From positions 1-35,224 of the IMG/VR virus record IMGVR_UViG_3300034190_000172: a stretch of 35,224 nt of DNA. One strand, written 5' to 3'. Positions 2,115 to 19,172 of the stretch are shown piece by piece. The notes under the pieces are model-generated. The model did no database searches. It was not told the origin of the DNA and saw only the letters and a list, made by a program, of their open reading frames with translations. Made by a program: the position numbers and the translations under genes. Within the stretch, counting starts at the first letter, position 1, and every line of letters begins with the position of its first letter. Source of the DNA: a virus.

Positions 2115-2137
2115 CATCATTGAAGGACATAAGATCT

Positions 2138-4627
2138 ATGACTAAGATTCATGGCACTGAGACAGATGAACTACTACGTGAGTTCAACGCAATAGATAAA
2201 GGACGTGAAAAGTACTTTGACCGAGACGGTAAAGTTACACAGATGTCCATCAAGAATATCCCACATAAGTTAATCAAAGATGCACTACCTATAGTGTCAT
2301 CAGTACTGAATGAGAATCTTGGCGACCTGACACCAAAAGGCAAGGGTCGTCCTTTTTCATGGGTACAAGATCTATCAAGTGTAGACCTAGACCTCATAAG
2401 TTACTTAGGTCTTACCACTTGTATGGATGGCGTTGGTATGCAGAAGTCGATGACTTGGGTACTAACTAAGATCGGTAAACGTATAGAACTAGAGTGCTGG
2501 GCTAAAGAGCTGCGTGAGCAAGACGCACGTCTTTTCGAGCGTATAGAGTCTAAGGTTACTAAGGATCACAACTCTGAGAGATACCGATTAAAGGCAGCTA
2601 CAGCTATTGCTCGTAAAGGTGGTTTTGAGAGATCCAAGTGGTCAGACGAGAGAAGAGTCAAAGCTGCTTCACCAGTATTAAATGCCATCTTAGAGCACTC
2701 CGGCGTATTCGAGGTATGGTCTATTGTTAAGTCAGGTAAGACACAGCGTAGTGTTGGATTGACAGGTGATGCTAGTCATTTGATAGCAGAGCTGATGGCA
2801 GATGAGTCTTGGTGTCAGCCTGTATTTAGCCCGATGATCGTACCACCTAGACCTTGGGAAGACATCGACACTGGTTGCTACATCGATGACGCTTTAAGAG
2901 CACAGATTGATCTTATTAGGTTTGGTAGTCCTTGGCAGAAGAAAAGCTTTAGAGACAGGGACTTAAGAGATGAACCTTATGTTAAGGCAGTTAATGCTAT
3001 TCAGGCTACGCCTTTTGTAGTTAACGAGGATATCTTGGATGCAGTAACTTGGGCTTGGCAGGAGGATATTCAAATACCAAGCTTCCCTCGTAAGTCTTAC
3101 ATAGAGCGCCCTGAGTTCCCTGAGAACTGGGATTACTTAGAGACTGTTGATAAAAAGCTTTGGCGTATCACTGCAAGAGATGTAGTGGTTCGTAACCGTC
3201 AAATTGATGGCGCTAGGGCAGTAATGGCTCAGGACTTAAACACGGCTAACGAGATGCTGATGTTTGAGGAGTTTTACTTACCTCACAACTTTGACTTCCG
3301 TGGTCGTGTGTATCCTATACCTCACTTTAGTCATCATCGTGACAGTCATGTAAAAGCGATGTTCTACTTTAAGAATGCTGAAGTAGTTACACCTGAGAGT
3401 TCTAAGTGGCTGGCGATACATTTAGCTAACACTGGCGACTTCAATAAGATCAGCAAGCAAGGCTTTGATGAACGTGAGATGTGGGTAGAGTTAAACCGTG
3501 ACAGCATTATTGGTGTTGCGCAGGATTACAAAGCTACCATTGGCTGGTGGTCACAAGCAGACAAGCCGTTTGAATTCTTAGCGGCCTGTTTGGAAATGGC
3601 AAGTTACTGGCAAGCACAGCAAGACGGTGAAGCGTTTTACTCAGGCTTACCTTTGGCGCTTGACGGTACTAACTCAGGCATTCAACACTTCAGTGCGTTA
3701 GGTCGTAACATTCAAGATGCCAAGCTTGTAAACTTAGTACCGGCTGACAAGCCTCAAGACATTTACCAACGTGTAGCCGATGCGGTGAAGTTACAAATTG
3801 AAAACGATCCTTGTGCTGAGGCTGATATGTGGAAGGCATACGGCATTAGTCGAAAGACTGTTAAGCGTAACGTGATGACTTATGGTTATTCATCTAAGCA
3901 GTTCGGATTCTTTGAGCAACTTCGTGAAGACGTTATGACACCTCTTACTGACAAGGTTTTACTTAAAGAGTTAGCGGTTCACCCGTTTGGTGAAGATGCT
4001 GGTTACGATGCTGCGAAGTACTTAGCACGTCATAACTGGACTGCTGTCAACGAAGTCATATCATCAGCACAGCAAGGTATGGCATTCTTTCAACAGTTAT
4101 GTGGCGCATTAGCGCATGAAGGTAAGCACTTTCACTGGGTAACGCCTTCGGGCTTTCCTGCTGCACAGTTTTACCCAGCTAACCGCCACAAGAAGATTAA
4201 GCTTTATCTTTATGACCGTGCGGCTGAGATGCCTGTACGTTCTCAGGTAACGCTTAGAGAGTTAGACAGTAGCCGAGTAGACAAGCGTAAAAGCAAGACA
4301 GCGATATCACCTAATGTGATCCATTCGCTAGATTCAGCGCATCTTCTCAGAACTGTGCTAGACTGTATCGATGGTGAGGAAGAGCAGATGTCGTTTTTCT
4401 TAATACACGACAGCTTTGCTACAACAGCCAACAAGACGCAGAAGATGTACGAAGCAATTAGGTCTACGTTCATCGATATTTATGACAGCGAAAGCTGGTA
4501 CGAAAACTTACTTTCTCAGGCTAAAAGGCAATTGGATAACCCAGACAGTAATCGGGTTCCAGAGCTGCCAGAGATGGGCGAGCTTAATTTAGCTCAGATC
4601 GCTGACAGTAAATACTGCTTCAGCTAA
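2138..4627 (+). CDS. Single-subunit phage RNA polymerase (T7 gp1-like)
   Basis: This 829-residue enzyme, slightly shorter than the 883 of T7, would transcribe phage genes from its own promoters. Motifs in order: FDFRGRVYP (about 385), LALDGTNSGIQHFSA with catalytic Asp509 (T7 Asp537), KRNVMTYGYSSKQFGF with Lys576 and Tyr584 (T7 Lys631, Tyr639), and HDSF with catalytic Asp758 (T7 Asp812). The C-terminus YCFS corresponds to the T7 FAFA foot. The segment where T7 carries its promoter-specificity loop (about 685-715) is diverged, so the promoter should differ from that of T7. I place the start at ATG 2138, preceded by AAGGA; an upstream TTG at 2120 is less likely. The putative promoter just upstream suggests self-amplifying expression. 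Confidence 0.97.
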   Translation: MTKIHGTETDELLREFNAIDKGREKYFDRDGKVTQMSIKNIPHKLIKDALPIVSSVLNENLGDLTPKGKGRPFSWVQDLSSVDLDLISYLGLTTCMDGVGMQKSMTWVLTKIGKRIELECWAKELREQDARLFERIESKVTKDHNSERYRLKAATAIARKGGFERSKWSDERRVKAASPVLNAILEHSGVFEVWSIVKSGKTQRSVGLTGDASHLIAELMADESWCQPVFSPMIVPPRPWEDIDTGCYIDDALRAQIDLIRFGSPWQKKSFRDRDLRDEPYVKAVNAIQATPFVVNEDILDAVTWAWQEDIQIPSFPRKSYIERPEFPENWDYLETVDKKLWRITARDVVVRNRQIDGARAVMAQDLNTANEMLMFEEFYLPHNFDFRGRVYPIPHFSHHRDSHVKAMFYFKNAEVVTPESSKWLAIHLANTGDFNKISKQGFDEREMWVELNRDSIIGVAQDYKATIGWWSQADKPFEFLAACLEMASYWQAQQDGEAFYSGLPLALDGTNSGIQHFSALGRNIQDAKLVNLVPADKPQDIYQRVADAVKLQIENDPCAEADMWKAYGISRKTVKRNVMTYGYSSKQFGFFEQLREDVMTPLTDKVLLKELAVHPFGEDAGYDAAKYLARHNWTAVNEVISSAQQGMAFFQQLCGALAHEGKHFHWVTPSGFPAAQFYPANRHKKIKLYLYDRAAEMPVRSQVTLRELDSSRVDKRKSKTAISPNVIHSLDSAHLLRTVLDCIDGEEEQMSFFLIHDSFATTANKTQKMYEAIRSTFIDIYDSESWYENLLSQAKRQLDNPDSNRVPELPEMGELNLAQIADSKYCFS

Positions 4628-10315: not shown

Positions 10316-10550
10316 AAGCCCAGCGCATTACGCAATCCATAACATTGAGCCGATCACTTTCATAATGGGCAACAACCTCCCGTTCTGGAAGGGCAACATC
10401 ATCAAGTACTGCATGAGAGCAGGTTACAAGCATTATGACGGCCAAGACTCTGTAGAGAGCGAGATAACAGACCTGATGAAGGTCATCCGATACGCTGAGA
10501 TGCGAATAAACACTCTTGAAGGGAGAAGCCCAATCCATGACGACGAATAG
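10299..10550 (+). CDS. DUF3310-type small protein
   Basis: This is an 83-residue protein. SPAHYAIHNIEPITFI, followed by FWKGNIIKYCMRAGYK and SEITDLMKVIRYAEMRI, is the pattern of DUF3310. T7 gp1.7, a nucleotide kinase, carries the same domain, so a role in nucleotide supply is possible. That fits its position directly in front of the ribonucleotide reductase, whose start it overlaps by 14 bases. The activity of a DUF3310 domain alone is not established, and the kinase idea is inference from the T7 protein. Confidence 0.85.
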   Translation: MTNIIESPAHYAIHNIEPITFIMGNNLPFWKGNIIKYCMRAGYKHYDGQDSVESEITDLMKVIRYAEMRINTLEGRSPIHDDE

Positions 10551-12438
10551 CGGATTACCAACTGATTACCAAACATTCATAGCAACCTCACGCTACTGTC
10601 GTTGGTTGCCTAAGAAGAACCGTAGAGAGACATGGCCCGAAACCGTGGATCGCTTCTGTGAAAACATATTACAGCGAGTATCACTGACTAAAGAAGAGAT
10701 CGAGGAGTGCCGAGAGGCTGTTGTTAACCTTGATGTGATGCCCTCTATGAGAGCCGTGATGACCGCTGGTAAAGCAGCAGACAGAGACAACACAAGTATC
10801 TACAACTGCTCTTATATGGCTGTAGACAGCACCAGAGCCTTTGATGAGGCTATGTTCATACTATTGTGTGGCACTGGTGTAGGCTTCAGTGTCGAAAAGA
10901 AGTACACACAGAAGTTACCACAGGTTCCGAGTGAGTTCCGTGATAACGGTGACGTACTTGTAGTAGCTGACAGCAAAGAAGGCTGGGCTAGGTCATTCCG
11001 TAAGCTTATCGCTATGCTTTACACTGGTGATGTACCTAAGTGGGACACAAGCAAGGTAAGACCTGCTGGTTCACGACTTGAGACCTTCGGAGGTAGAGCA
11101 TCTGGCGCTGGGCCATTAGAGCAATTGTTTGTATATACAATCGATGTGTTCAAAGAAGCAGCCGGTAGACAGCTCACACCTTTTGAGTGTCATTCGATCA
11201 TGTGTAAGGTCGGTGAGGTAGTGGTCGTTGGTGGTGTCCGTAGATCAGCAATGATCAGCTTAAGTGACCTGCAAGACGATAAGATGAGATTAGCTAAGAG
11301 CGGTAACTGGTGGGAAACACGACCAGAGATGGCATTGGCTAACAACTCGGTAAGCTTTACCCGTAAGCCTGACATGATGTCGTTTCTCGATGAGTGGACA
11401 GCACTGGTCAAGAGTGGCTCAGGTGAACGAGGTATATTCAACCGTGAAGCCAGCCAGAACCAAGTAGCACGGTTCGACAGGAGAGATCCAAGCCCTGAGT
11501 TTGGTACTAACCCTTGCTCAGAGATCGTACTACGCCCTAACCAGTTCTGTAATCTATCTGAGGTCGTGGTGAGAGCCAGTGACACAGAAGAAGACCTGAA
11601 GCGTAAAGTACGAATTGCAGCCATTCTAGGCACAGTACAGGCCACATTCACTCATATGCCTTACCTTCGTAAGATATGGCAGAAAAACACGTCAGAAGAG
11701 GCTTTGTTAGGTCTCAGCCTGACTGGGATCATGGACAATGAGATTACTGCTAATCCTGATGGACGACTCCTTAATGTTCTTAGAGATATATCTGTTTCGG
11801 TTAATGCAGAATACGCTGACCGCTTTGGAATTCAACGCTCAGCGAGCATCACCTGTGTTAAGCCTTCTGGCACTGTCAGCCAGCTTGTTGATGCTGCTTC
11901 TGGTATTCATACACGTCACTCTGAGTATTATATTCGTACTATTCGTGGTGATAAGAAAGATCCTCTCACCAAGCTTATGGTAGACCAAGGCATCCCTGCT
12001 GAGGACTGTGTGATGAAGCCTGACACAACGACTGTGTTCAGCTTCCCTGTGAAGTCACCAGACAATGCCATCGTAAGAGACGATAGATCAGCTCTTGAGC
12101 AGCTTGAGACGTGGAAGACCTACGCTCTTGAGTGGTGTGAACATAAGCCATCCGTGACGATATCCGTGAGAGATCATGAGTGGATGGAGGTAGGAGCTTG
12201 GGTGTATAAGCACTTCGATATCATCAGTGGCATTAGCTTCTTACCACACTCCAACCACACCTATCAGCAAGCGCCCTATCAGGAGTGTACCAAGGATGAA
12301 TACATAGCATTGAAGGCAGTGATGCCTGAGAAGGTAGATTGGACGAAGCTGAGTTCTTATGAGTCCGAAGATAACACTTCAGGGTCGCAGACATTGGCTT
12401 GCTCGGGTGATGCCTGTGAAGTCGTTGACCTTACTTAA
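10537..12438 (+). CDS. nrdJ: Class II (B12-dependent) ribonucleotide reductase, monomeric type
   Basis: This 633-residue enzyme reduces ribonucleotides to deoxyribonucleotides using adenosylcobalamin to make a thiyl radical. It follows the monomeric Lactobacillus leichmannii type. NCSY holds Cys91 (Cys119 there), NPCSEI holds Asn325, Cys327 and Glu329 (Asn406, radical Cys408, Glu410), and QFCNL holds Cys338 (Cys419). The tail ACSGDAC has Cys622 and Cys627, matching the shuttle pair 731/736 in spacing. KPSGTVSQL, the phosphate-binding segment, is also present. It is about 100 residues shorter than the lactobacillus enzyme. I chose ATG 10537 (GAAGGGAG upstream) over a TTG at 10516. Oxygen-independent dNTP supply is typical of marine phages; host cobalamin is required. 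Confidence 0.95.
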   Translation: MTTNSGLPTDYQTFIATSRYCRWLPKKNRRETWPETVDRFCENILQRVSLTKEEIEECREAVVNLDVMPSMRAVMTAGKAADRDNTSIYNCSYMAVDSTRAFDEAMFILLCGTGVGFSVEKKYTQKLPQVPSEFRDNGDVLVVADSKEGWARSFRKLIAMLYTGDVPKWDTSKVRPAGSRLETFGGRASGAGPLEQLFVYTIDVFKEAAGRQLTPFECHSIMCKVGEVVVVGGVRRSAMISLSDLQDDKMRLAKSGNWWETRPEMALANNSVSFTRKPDMMSFLDEWTALVKSGSGERGIFNREASQNQVARFDRRDPSPEFGTNPCSEIVLRPNQFCNLSEVVVRASDTEEDLKRKVRIAAILGTVQATFTHMPYLRKIWQKNTSEEALLGLSLTGIMDNEITANPDGRLLNVLRDISVSVNAEYADRFGIQRSASITCVKPSGTVSQLVDAASGIHTRHSEYYIRTIRGDKKDPLTKLMVDQGIPAEDCVMKPDTTTVFSFPVKSPDNAIVRDDRSALEQLETWKTYALEWCEHKPSVTISVRDHEWMEVGAWVYKHFDIISGISFLPHSNHTYQQAPYQECTKDEYIALKAVMPEKVDWTKLSSYESEDNTSGSQTLACSGDACEVVDLT

Positions 12439-12551
12439 GGTTAGCGTTAAAAGTCTCAAAGCGATTCTTTAAAGGAGTAAGGCTATTAGGATAGGATCAG
12501 TCAGCTGTGTAACAAGAGAGACTATTACTAATCGCCATATTAATTACGCTT

Positions 12552-12658
12552 AATGGAGGTTGCGGGGTGATACCTACGACCTTCAATAGCTAAGAACCTC
12601 CATTGACGATGTAACAAGACATCTAAGAGTGTATCCCAGCCAATCGTAGGCATCACCC
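12552..12658 (+). ncRNA. Interlocked inverted repeats, possible RNA pseudoknot
   Basis: Arm A (12552-12561, AATGGAGGTT) is perfectly complementary to A' (12595-12604). Arm B (12565-12579) is complementary to B' (12644-12658) at 14 of 15 positions. The order A-B-A'-B' means both stems together form an H-type pseudoknot, or else two mutually exclusive hairpins. A small extra hairpin (GATGT/ACATC, 12608-12623) sits in the A'-B' loop. It lies 113 bases after the reductase stop and upstream of the putative late promoter, so it would be the 3' end of the replication transcript. It could equally act as DNA. Confidence 0.5.
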
Positions 12659-12745
12659 AAAAGGCTAGTACCCAAGACTCATCCTGTCAAGATATACCCT
12701 GTACGTGATTATGTACCGTGTGAGACAGAAACCTAACCGTAGACC

Positions 12746-12770
12746 ATTTGTGTCCACCCTTAGGAGATAA
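12746..12770 (+). promoter_or_regulatory. Putative phage RNA polymerase promoter, copy 2
   Basis: This is the second exact copy of the 17-mer found before the RNA polymerase gene, followed here by AGGAGATAA. With the start at G12763, the ATTT at the upstream end and the TAG-GAGA around the start fall in the same places as in the SP6 promoter. It faces the virion genes and would give a leader of almost 490 bases before the first fibre gene, crossing the 33-bp repeats. Confidence 0.65.
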
Positions 12771-12848
12771 TGCTCTAAGCTCACTCATATGCAACACACC
12801 AGCAATAAGACATGAGTATATACATGGGTAATCCATGAGTATGTATTA

Positions 12849-12914
12849 GGTGTAAGCAGGGGTGAATACTTAGGTGATCTTGGTGTAAGCAGGGGTGAAT
12901 ACTTAGGTGATCTT
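12849..12914 (+). repeat. 33-bp perfect tandem repeat, two copies
   Basis: Copies at 12849-12881 and 12882-12914 are identical, and five more bases of a third copy (GGTGT) follow. Each unit begins GGTGTAAGCAGGGG and ends GGTGATCTT. Only two copies and no spacers are present, so this is not a CRISPR. Iteron-like binding sites or a recent slippage duplication are the likely readings. Confidence 0.9.
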
Positions 12915-13249
12915 GGTGTTACTTATGTCCCGATTTGTAATGAATAGATATCACCCTTGACCATCAATTATCAGACACACCCAAGATATCACAGCAGTTC
13001 AAGCCTGAGCATCAACGGATAATACATCCGATGACCTATGATCCCTAGTGATATCAATGACTTAGGTCGTATACGCTGGTACTTTAGGGACTCTAGGGAC
13101 TCCTAGCCCAGATTCTGACCCCCACTGCCTAAACTAATCAATGGTTTCAAATAATGACCTTAAAGGGTTCTTCTTGTTGTTGTTGTTATTAGGCTTTCAA
13201 GAGAAGCTACCCAGATTCAACACATTAGATATTGCATAGGTATTAACCA

Positions 13250-14494
13250 ATGGAAGTTACAACAACTAAACACATCAGTAAGCTGGACGTAGCTCAGCCT
13301 TCAGGCAGCTCACCTATCAGTGAGGCAGACGACCACCTAAGATTCATCAAAGACTGCATCAAGACGACCTTCTCAGGTATCACCTCAGTAGGCTCAGGTA
13401 ACGTCACAGCAGATGCAGCAGCTTTAAACAAGCTCGATGGATACACAGGTACGACTGGTGATTTAAACACCATAGCCGGTGCTGTATCCTCAGGTCTTAC
13501 TGTCTCAGATATTGCTAAGCTTGCGGGTGTAAGTGCCACTTCTGCCCAGCTTAATAATACAGCTAATATACCAGCGAATACGAATACTGCCTTAGGTGCG
13601 AAGGCTAACCTAGCTTCTCCTACGCTTACTGGGACTCCTAAAGCTCCTACACAAGCCGCTAGTGATAACTCGACTAAGATTGCTACTACGGCGTATGTTA
13701 CAGCCAAGACCTCAGGTATACCTACCAGTAGTAACCTAGCTGCTACCAATGCTGCTGTAGCCTTGAATACGGACTATAGAGCCTCAAGTACTCTCGCAAT
13801 AGCGGGTAAGGCTAATATAAATAGTCCTGCGCTTACTGGGAATCCTACAGCTACTACACAAGCCGCTACTGATAACTCGACTAAGATTGCTACTACTGCC
13901 TTTGTTACGGGTGCCTTGGGTGCGAAGGCTAACCTAGCTTCTCCTGCGCTTACTGGGACTCCTACAGCTCCTACAGCAGGGGCGGCTGTAAATACCACCC
14001 AGATTGCTACTACTGCCTTTGTTCAGGGCTTGTTAGGTGGTTATCCTACCACGGCTACTTTTAATGCTGGGATAACCTCTGCTACAACACCCAGTGCAAG
14101 TGTAAGTACTGCTGGTAAAATAGAGATTGCTACTACGTCAGAAGCAGCGGCTGGGACAAGTGCAGATAAAGCCTTAACACCGTCGAATTTACTAGGGGTA
14201 GCTGTCGATAATCAGTTTATCAATAGTGTTAACAAGCAAGGCTCTGTGACTATTGCGGGTGTAGGGATTAAATGGGGTATAGGGACAAGTACTACAGGCA
14301 ATTCAGAGTCTTTCACTTATGACACAGCTTTCCCTAATTTTACAAGTGTAGTCATGCTTACCCGAGACACCAATGCTGGGGTATCATCGCTTAACGTTAA
14401 CAGCAGGAATAAGTCTGGCTTCACTATCGATAGGGATAACAACACATACGGTGCTGGTAATTATGATTTTTATTTCCTCGCTATAGGCGGTTAA
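13250..14494 (+). CDS. Tail fibre protein with 36-residue repeats and gp53-like tip
   Basis: This 414-residue fibre protein would bind the host surface. The N-terminus (PISEADDHLRFIKDCIKTTF, about 20-41) is a typical virion-anchoring segment. Three 36-residue repeats follow at 13592-13699, 13799-13906 and 13916-14023, each with the pattern KAN..SP.LTG.P.A.T and ending ..IATTA.V; this is the common phage fibre shaft repeat. The C-terminal part (IKWGIGTSTTGN and YDFYFLAIGG) has the look of the gp53-like fibre tip domain. The DNA of the repeats is nearly identical, so recombination between units is easy. The start lies in ATTAACCAATG, shared with two other appendage genes. Confidence 0.88.
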   Translation: MEVTTTKHISKLDVAQPSGSSPISEADDHLRFIKDCIKTTFSGITSVGSGNVTADAAALNKLDGYTGTTGDLNTIAGAVSSGLTVSDIAKLAGVSATSAQLNNTANIPANTNTALGAKANLASPTLTGTPKAPTQAASDNSTKIATTAYVTAKTSGIPTSSNLAATNAAVALNTDYRASSTLAIAGKANINSPALTGNPTATTQAATDNSTKIATTAFVTGALGAKANLASPALTGTPTAPTAGAAVNTTQIATTAFVQGLLGGYPTTATFNAGITSATTPSASVSTAGKIEIATTSEAAAGTSADKALTPSNLLGVAVDNQFINSVNKQGSVTIAGVGIKWGIGTSTTGNSESFTYDTAFPNFTSVVMLTRDTNAGVSSLNVNSRNKSGFTIDRDNNTYGAGNYDFYFLAIGG

Positions 14495-17414: not shown

Positions 17415-19172
17415 ATGGCATGGGTCGCAACAGCAGTAGTTGGTAGTGCAGTAATTGGAGGAGTAGCTTCAAACAGCGCAGCCGGTAAAGCAGCAGACGC
17501 ACAAGATCGTGCATCACAGTTAAACTATGAAGCGTCAATGGCTGGCTTTAACTTGTCGAAGCCGTATCTTTCTGACCTCTATGCCAATCAGCAGTTTCAA
17601 TATGAGCAGATGCTGGCTAATGGCGCTTACGATGGTGAGACCTTTGGCGGTATGGATCCACGTACTACTACTGGCTATGATCAAATGTATGATCAAGGCT
17701 CTCAGCAGAACCTTGCTGCTACTGGTATGATGGATACCACTAGCGGGTTCGCTGGTAACGCTGCTAACCTTTATAACACTGCTGCCAACAGTAACGTCCA
17801 AGGCGATGCGATGAATTTCGCAAGTCAAAATGGTATTGGTGGTGCATTAGATTTCGCAAACGCAAACAACTCTGCCCAGTCAGCGATAAACTTCGGCAAC
17901 GCTAACAACAACTTTGCTAACTCATACGATTACGCAAGTAGTAACACTGGTGTCCAAGACGCTAATGCCTTTGCAGCAGGTAGCACCAACGTCCAAGATG
18001 CTAACGCTTTTGGTGCTGGAAGCACGAACGTCCAAGACGCTAACGCTTTTGCTGCTAACAGTACTAACGTCCAAGACGCTAACGCTTTTGCTGCGGGCAG
18101 TACTAACGTCCAAGATGCCTTAGACTTCGCTGCAAAAGATGATATGCAGGGCGCTATCGATTATGCCTCTGGCGACCGTCTCGATAGTCTTACAAAAGCT
18201 GCAATGCGTGACCCTTACCGTCAACTTACTGAGAGCACGTTAACTGGTATTGATGCCAGCGCATCGGCCTCTGGTAACATGAACAGCTCACGCGCAGGTA
18301 TTGCAGACGCACTTGCTCAACGCTCTTACGATGACCGTTCTGCTGATGTATCTGCTGGTATCCAAGACAGTTTAATGACCCAATACACGAATAATCGAGA
18401 TACCTTAGCGAATAACTATCTTGGCGATAGGGAAAACCAATCTAACGCTTATCTAGACGACAGATCCGACCAAGCCACTACTTATCTTGGTGATAGATCC
18501 GATCAAACTGATCGTTTCACAGATAATAGAAATAACCAAGCCGACACTTATCTGAATAATCGTAACGACATTGCAAACGATTACAGGAACGCAGGGGATG
18601 CGGCATCAAATAGGTACACTGATAGCTCTAACTACCTGTCTGACTCATATCTAACGAACCAAAGTGATCAGAGAAACTTCTACGGTAATACAGAGAACAC
18701 TCAATACTCTAATATGACAACTGCCAATAATAACATGGGCAACATCTATGGTAATGCGATTGCTTCTCAGGGCGCAGGTACTCAAGGGATGATTAACGCA
18801 GGTAATGCTTTCGGCGCTGACAACCAAGCATACTTGAACGATCAACGTGCTAACTACGACAGACAGAATGGTTATGATTTTGGTGTATCTGGTCAATACT
18901 CAAATATGTTAAACGGTTTAGCGGTTACTAACTCCACGAACCCTAACATCCAACCTAATATGTACGACCCTACAGCCGCTGGTATCACAGGTGCTATGAG
19001 CGCAGGTATGGGAGCATATCAGGCGTTTGGCAGTCCTAGTCTGTTTGGAGGCGGTGGTAATACAGTAAAAGCCACCCAGTACACACAAGCTCCTTCTTAC
19101 GGTCAGACGGACGTTTTCTCAGGTGCGACTATGTCTCCTACGTCTAGTGGCGGTGGTGGCTTCTTCGGTTAA
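17415..19172 (+). CDS. Repeat-rich internal virion / DNA-ejection protein
   Basis: This 585-residue protein has a hydrophobic Gly/Ala start (WVATAVVGSAVIGGVAS) like the ejected internal proteins of podoviruses (T7 gp14 role). Residues about 125-255 form about ten 13-residue repeats around a core of QDANAFAAGS; five of them are strong at 17946-18140. Residues 324-455 form 11-residue repeats (Y.x.x.R pattern, as in YLGDRENQSNA and YLDDRSDQATT) running from 18384 to about 18779. The C-terminus is Gly/Ser-rich (GGGGFFG). The hydrophobic start could insert in the host membrane and the repeats could form long rods or coiled coils. It lies between the nozzle and other internal protein genes. Confidence 0.75.
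   Translation: MAWVATAVVGSAVIGGVASNSAAGKAADAQDRASQLNYEASMAGFNLSKPYLSDLYANQQFQYEQMLANGAYDGETFGGMDPRTTTGYDQMYDQGSQQNLAATGMMDTTSGFAGNAANLYNTAANSNVQGDAMNFASQNGIGGALDFANANNSAQSAINFGNANNNFANSYDYASSNTGVQDANAFAAGSTNVQDANAFGAGSTNVQDANAFAANSTNVQDANAFAAGSTNVQDALDFAAKDDMQGAIDYASGDRLDSLTKAAMRDPYRQLTESTLTGIDASASASGNMNSSRAGIADALAQRSYDDRSADVSAGIQDSLMTQYTNNRDTLANNYLGDRENQSNAYLDDRSDQATTYLGDRSDQTDRFTDNRNNQADTYLNNRNDIANDYRNAGDAASNRYTDSSNYLSDSYLTNQSDQRNFYGNTENTQYSNMTTANNNMGNIYGNAIASQGAGTQGMINAGNAFGADNQAYLNDQRANYDRQNGYDFGVSGQYSNMLNGLAVTNSTNPNIQPNMYDPTAAGITGAMSAGMGAYQAFGSPSLFGGGGNTVKATQYTQAPSYGQTDVFSGATMSPTSSGGGGFFG
17946..18140 (+). repeat. 39-bp coding repeat, five tandem copies
   Basis: Five successive 39-base units (starts at 17946, 17985, 18024, 18063, 18102) encode TNVQDANAFAAGS with small changes; the DNA of the middle three is nearly identical. 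More diverged units extend on both sides at the protein level. Such repeats expand and shrink by slippage or recombination. Confidence 0.9.
18384..18779 (+). repeat. 33-bp coding repeat (11-residue units), about twelve copies
   Basis: From 18384 the protein is in register with an 11-residue period. Most units start with Tyr (twice Phe or Met), and the earlier ones follow Y-L-x-D-R-x-D/N-Q-x-x-x. Ten units reach 18713, and two weaker ones follow. The DNA copies are diverged, so the repeat is old and kept at protein level. An 11-residue (hendecad) period is typical of right-handed coiled coils. Confidence 0.75.

Follow-up and report, generated by a model that had tools for sequence, protein, structure and literature searches.

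The longer of two inverted repeats that follow a ribonucleotide reductase gene in an uncultured T7-like phage probably forms the outer stem of a small noncoding RNA, which would be transcribed leftward from the minus strand by the host RNA polymerase and would carry a hairpin at its 5' end. On comparison with related phages, the element has the appearance of a small regulatory RNA, so far undescribed, and not of a pseudoknot.

The window, by which we mean the whole stretch of 35,224 nt (IMG/VR record IMGVR_UViG_3300034190_000172, positions 1 to 35,224), belongs to an uncultured T7-like phage. It encodes an integrase (120–950), the phage's own single-subunit RNA polymerase (2120–4627), a class II ribonucleotide reductase (10516–12438), and further replication genes for endonuclease I, primase-helicase, DNA polymerase, and a 5'-3' exonuclease. 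The reductase stop at 12438 is followed by a noncoding gap of 811 bases and then by tail fibre, terminase, portal, and capsid genes. The stretch with the inverted repeats (12552–12658) sits between this stop and a phage-type promoter (12745–12767); the integrase, of interest because integron attC-like sites are recombined as single strands by a tyrosine recombinase at a hairpin, lies more than 11 kb from the hairpin element in the window. By its gene matches the window is a mosaic, in which T7-type replication genes and polymerase are joined to distant portal and capsid genes, and no close cultured relative was found by DNA or protein in the collection searched. Most of the portal and capsid matches, with identities of about 30–37%, were to Pseudomonas, Escherichia, Vibrio, and other phages, and Pelagibacter phage HTVC106P was one of the portal matches listed. 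Elsewhere in the window, a 39-bp tandem repeat (17952–18115, 4.2 copies, 85%) lies within an open reading frame of 585 amino acids (17415–19172) that had no Pfam or PHROG match.

The conserved hairpin element occupies 12565–12658 on the minus strand and scored 48.7 bits (E = 1.6e-10) with model R1, which is based on a MAFFT alignment of 17 elements (A1), and 49.1 bits with model R2, the window sequence belonging to the training sets of both; R2 had a single match in G000, on the minus strand. The 5' arm of the outer stem of the minus-strand RNA (12644–12658) is complementary to the 3' arm (12565–12579) at 14 of 15 positions, and the single mismatch, A·C on the plus strand, is G·U on the minus strand. 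Within this stem, the 5' side of an inner helix (12626–12642) pairs with 12587–12601, which contains the conserved motif AACCTCC on the plus strand, and single-base bulges are present at 12630 and 12633, two pairs apart. The bulged A (minus strand) at 12630 was constant in all 17 aligned elements, and the other bulge was G in most elements and T in the window and L001. An apical hairpin, P3 (12608–12623), presents the loop AACAAG on the plus strand (CTTGTT on the minus strand); it has 5 bp in the window, L120, and L001, with changes of C-G to T-A and of G-C to A-T, and is absent from short-type elements. The layout of the minus-strand RNA across elements consists of an outer stem of approximately 8–15 bp, the inner helix with its two bulges, and 3–4 bp above, topped either by a loop of six to seven bases (short type) or by the extra small hairpin, whose loop is mostly CTTGAT, CTTGTT, or CTAGTT. 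In an informal look at coding capacity, an opposite-strand reading frame was found to overlap the element in L145, and the short-type loops differ in length by one base, which would shift a frame. Covarying helices, constant bulges, and a conserved loop are likewise features of structured families in Rfam, but the element differs from these in that Rfam 15 gave no gathering-level match in the window or in seven relatives. A search of 12300–13300 at E values up to 10 gave a single match, to a snoRNA model, located elsewhere and below the cut-off.

The strand to which the helix belongs was apparent from its wobble pairs. When the helices of A1 were read on the plus strand, the non-Watson-Crick pairs were mostly A·C rather than G·U. 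With the same elements read on the minus strand (alignment A2), 94.2% of 328 cells were standard pairs and two-sided changes were present in 15 of 23 pairs, with none of 500 shuffles reaching as high a value and slid controls yielding 35–48%. Column pair 35–74 was represented by C-G, G-C, A-U, U-A, and G-U, and column pair 32–76 changed from A-U to G-C. Wobbles on the minus strand amounted to 25 G·U versus 0 A·C cells, or nine versus zero column pairs (P = 0.004), in a count that leaves out the outer-helix cells of L120, the window, and L001 because MAFFT places them out of register. A cruder strand-neutral count on the plus strand, which includes the mis-anchored L103, gave 21 G·U and 40 A·C, with most of the G·U at outer ends beyond the common stem. 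The strand-neutral count for the neighbouring stretch (hairpin 2) was 36 versus 40; this stretch serves as a neutral comparison and not as a strand control, since its arms were not consistently found. Read on the plus strand, the window alone has no G·U but four A·C pairs in the inner helix, all four being G·U on the minus strand, and a further A·C in the outer stem; L103 and some of the outer rows of the alignment also contain mismatches. The predicted fold of the window element is −47.0 kcal/mol (z = −5.91) for the minus strand versus −29.4 kcal/mol (z = −4.30, trimmed) for the plus strand. With RNA parameters, the more stable fold was that of the minus strand for 24 of the 27 distinct elements, a count that again includes mis-anchored L103, and that of the plus strand for L095, L101, and L091. 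At the level of comparison between relatives, both the helix and its minus-strand identity are thereby shown. The first-pass annotation was right to place a structured element after the replication genes and ahead of the late promoter, and the covariation seen in relatives bears out a helix. The outcome that would have refuted the annotation, a lack of compensating changes, was found for the shorter repeat described below (A/A') and not for the arms of the outer stem (B/B').

The annotation had also taken the element as the end of the replication-gene transcript. A plus-strand hairpin at the 3' end or a processing site of that transcript, which would stop decay or be cut by RNase III and would require no pseudoknot, would suit a position between replication genes and late promoter in the lineages inspected, and the plus strand does fold, as its z-score indicates. 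We nevertheless consider this reading rather unlikely, given that A·C mismatches pile up on the plus strand, that the energies are worse in 24 of the 27 elements, and that there is no terminator-like U-run at the element. An intrinsic terminator, in the form of a G+C-rich hairpin followed by a U-run, was also considered as a candidate and rejected, there being no such site at the element on either strand. Since G·U pairs occur on the minus strand only, a leftward sigma70-like promoter is present, and no plus-strand terminator was seen, the reductase transcript probably does not have its 3' end here.

The strand bias would also fit a single strand of DNA. A hairpin formed by the minus strand as single-stranded lagging-strand template, with an origin to its right at the late promoter, might act as a priming or protein-loading site, and its location beside a phage promoter and tandem repeats (12849–12919) resembles the promoter-linked origins known for T7. 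With DNA parameters, the minus strand was favoured in the window (−17.0 versus −12.9), but it was barely favoured in L089 (−13.4 versus −13.0) and disfavoured in L102 (−13.3 versus −14.5). Given that the preference was gone in two of the three elements tested, the pattern is more consistent with RNA than with single-stranded DNA; the DNA reading also leaves the sigma70-like promoter unexplained, and we regard it as quite unlikely.

Directly 5' of the stem on the minus strand lies a candidate sigma70-like promoter (12690–12662), comprising TTGACA (12690–12685), a 17-nt spacer, and TAGCCT (12667–12662). Its score in the window gave P values of 0.001 against 3000 random places and 0.003 against shuffles. 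For seven distinct lineages combined, the leftward promoter had a P value of 2e-7 against random places, compared with 0.03 for the same-side test on the plus strand; these lineages are not fully independent, because in the short type the late promoter core, read in complement, supplies the −35-like box. Several elements of a second set of relatives contain TTGATA-16/17-TACATT or TATTCT on the minus strand, and L117/L001 (P = 0.41), L089 (0.16), and L120 (0.11) have a weak promoter or none. A simple consensus scan placed the window promoter below threshold because TAGCCT matches at three of six positions. The comparison supports a leftward sigma70-like promoter preceding the element, and promoter and strand-specific covariation together make the element a candidate phage small or antisense RNA, apparently copied from the strand opposite to that of the genes. 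L116 and other loci of the second set have a second hairpin, ATCAAGGGGT...ACCCCTTGAT, in the interval from the element to the promoter; it overlaps the −35 box of the leftward promoter and in L116 has 15 perfect base pairs.

The put RNA of HK022 and the nut sites of lambda are known cases in which a transcript of the host polymerase has a structured 5' end, and put RNA binds the host polymerase and suppresses termination. By analogy, the element might be a cis-acting antitermination or processivity signal that acts on the host polymerase from the 5' terminus of a long antisense transcript running leftward. The 5' structured position directly after a sigma70-like promoter is alike, and no consistent intrinsic terminator was found after the element on the minus strand in 13 lineages. 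The candidate RNA differs from put and nut, however, in sequence, partner, and gene direction, and no leftward genes for such a signal to serve are evident in the window. We consider this possibility decidedly unlikely.

The pseudoknot or two-state switch proposed by the first-pass annotation depends on a second, shorter inverted repeat. Recalculation reproduced exactly the arms, the coordinates, and the interlocking order A-B-A'-B': A (12552–12561, plus strand) and A' (12595–12604) are complementary at all ten positions, and B and B' are the arms of the outer stem. The annotation had judged both pairs of arms unlikely by chance, which held for one of them. Chance levels were taken from 40 order-1 Markov genomes of 35 kb. 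Inverted repeats of 15 bp or longer, with no more than one mismatch and a spacer of 20–100, had a mean of 0.1 per genome versus one observed, and perfect 10-bp inverted repeats with a spacer of 20–60 had a mean of 2.0 per genome (range, 0–5), also versus one observed; B/B' is above chance and A/A' is not, genome-wide. In a local shuffle of the flank, the ten bases of A/A' had a P value of 0.004 in the window, whereas in 18 of 18 relatives the pairing was absent, with only four to six bases matching between left flank and inner strand (shuffle P values of 0.30 to 1.0). When the plus-strand RNA was folded with its flanks, B/B' and a small inner hairpin were kept and A/A' was dropped (z = −1.61); the trimmed plus-strand fold (z = −4.30) likewise retained B/B' and lacked A/A'. 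An HDV-like ribozyme, which presumably shares the strand order in the form P1-P2-P1'-P2', was considered as an instance of a conserved nested pseudoknot and rejected, with A/A' missing from all 18 relatives and no Rfam match. Despite perfect complementarity in the window, the pseudoknot or switch is highly improbable and, as a conserved feature, already refuted, because about two such 10-bp pairs are expected per genome and the relatives lack this one; A/A' is best regarded as incidental or as peculiar to the phage of the window.

Relatives were collected by a reductase search and by a scan for the late-promoter motif. Where readable, they share the order of reductase or another replication-module gene, gap, promoter, and tail fibre, and a hairpin with a shared core lies upstream of the promoter. 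On the plus strand, this core is GAACCTCCA...AGGAGTGTCTCC in a first set (L089, L118, L120, L145, L155, L160, and L161), GAATGCC...AGGCTATCTC in the second set (among L091–L139), and GAGCTTCC...AGGAATACATC in L001. Model R1 matched 33 of 71 sources, the training elements matching by construction, and then five of 24 and two of 28 further sources; in the former group, two weak hits (L172 and L173, E = 0.046) were dropped as unrelated sequence. Model R2 found exactly one copy in 16 of 20 records and no match in four (those of L111, L003, L090, and L086; L002 type), the L002-type records having another hairpin where the element stands elsewhere. In L002, L003, L004, L005, and L009, the position of the element after the reductase stop is taken by a different long hairpin, GTGCAGGGG...CCCCTGCAC, that the model does not match. 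Of 80 reductase loci, L001 alone carries the element. An integrase was present in ten of 13 records searched and a phage RNA polymerase in the same ten, with the other three being fragments of 13–24 kb. R1 gave no match on stretches of the cultured phages HMO-2011, CRP-403, CRP-804, CRP-4, and CRP-2, nor did R2 on whole HTVC106P. One pattern scan of bacterial genomes gave 71 matches versus a rough, hand-estimated chance number of more than 100, and the model matched none of 11 of these 71 loci. Three further handles and 385 genomes of one alphaproteobacterial class likewise gave no matches, in searches run without a positive control. Across the records compared, the element holds a conserved single-copy place between the replication module and the late promoter of related uncultured marine phages.

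The late promoter, CATTTGTGTCCACCCTTAGGAGA (12745–12767, plus strand), has its core repeated at 2091–2113, directly before the phage RNA polymerase gene. We take it to be a promoter of the phage polymerase because the motif occurs one to five times per record in a single direction within each of 11 records and its read-backwards control does not occur in them; presumably it resembles the SP6 and T7 promoters. The phage polymerase may drive its own gene from the copy at 2091–2113. The noncoding stretch from late promoter to tail-fibre gene (12768–13249) contains boxes GTCCCGATTTG, CATCAATTATCA, CGGATAATACATCCG, and GATATCAA in common with relatives, is possibly a structured leader RNA or an origin, and is kept over approximately 400 bases in the second set of relatives. 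Just past the late promoter is a perfect 33-bp tandem repeat (12849–12919, 2.2 copies), in place of which relatives such as L089, L118, and L155 have other short repeats. Pairing of the element loop with the late leader, inspected by eye, was unsupported.

For the favoured reading of a leftward small RNA, we propose that host RNA polymerase would start at the sigma70-like promoter, so that the element would be a small noncoding RNA gene divergent from the late promoter. The transcript would begin at or near the stem, and the hairpin with two bulges and an exposed loop would therefore be its 5' end. Such an RNA may be made before the phage polymerase takes over, and the hairpin may shield the 5' end or bind a protein through its bulges. 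The fixed single-copy place and the constant bulges suggest that the RNA is probably regulatory. It is directed towards the 3' end of the replication operon and for that reason may restrain expression of, or read-through from, that operon, or it may hold back the switch to late transcription.

A literature search found no description of the element, which is not proof of its being unpublished, and a pelagiphage transcriptome paper (PMC12753301) made no mention of it under the terms looked for. The nearest likeness by description is to Pseudomonas phage LUZ100. In the accessible part of its report, this phage is, like the window, T7-like with an integrase and a phage promoter before its own polymerase gene, and transcriptomics detected a noncoding antisense RNA (PMC10134795). 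That antisense RNA differs in its location, which is within the structural region past the capsid gene, and the same part of the report describes no conserved structure for it (PMC10134795).

T7-like cyanophages are described, in the part of a report available to us, as integrating without stable lysogeny and as having no repressor homologues (PMC8776855). For integrase-bearing T7-like marine phages, this raises the question of how the lytic genes are restrained. It is possible, although doubtful, that the leftward structured RNA is the missing lysis-lysogeny or early-late brake in such phages without a recognised repressor; as a brake, it would limit expression of the replication operon up to the point at which the phage polymerase activates the late promoter, which overlaps or abuts that of the RNA. 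More generally, wobble pairs should be used to decide to which strand a hairpin belongs before the hairpin is given a role. For these phages, a conserved RNA that lies where the replication genes give way to the late genes and has a host-type promoter of its own would provide a concrete candidate regulator.
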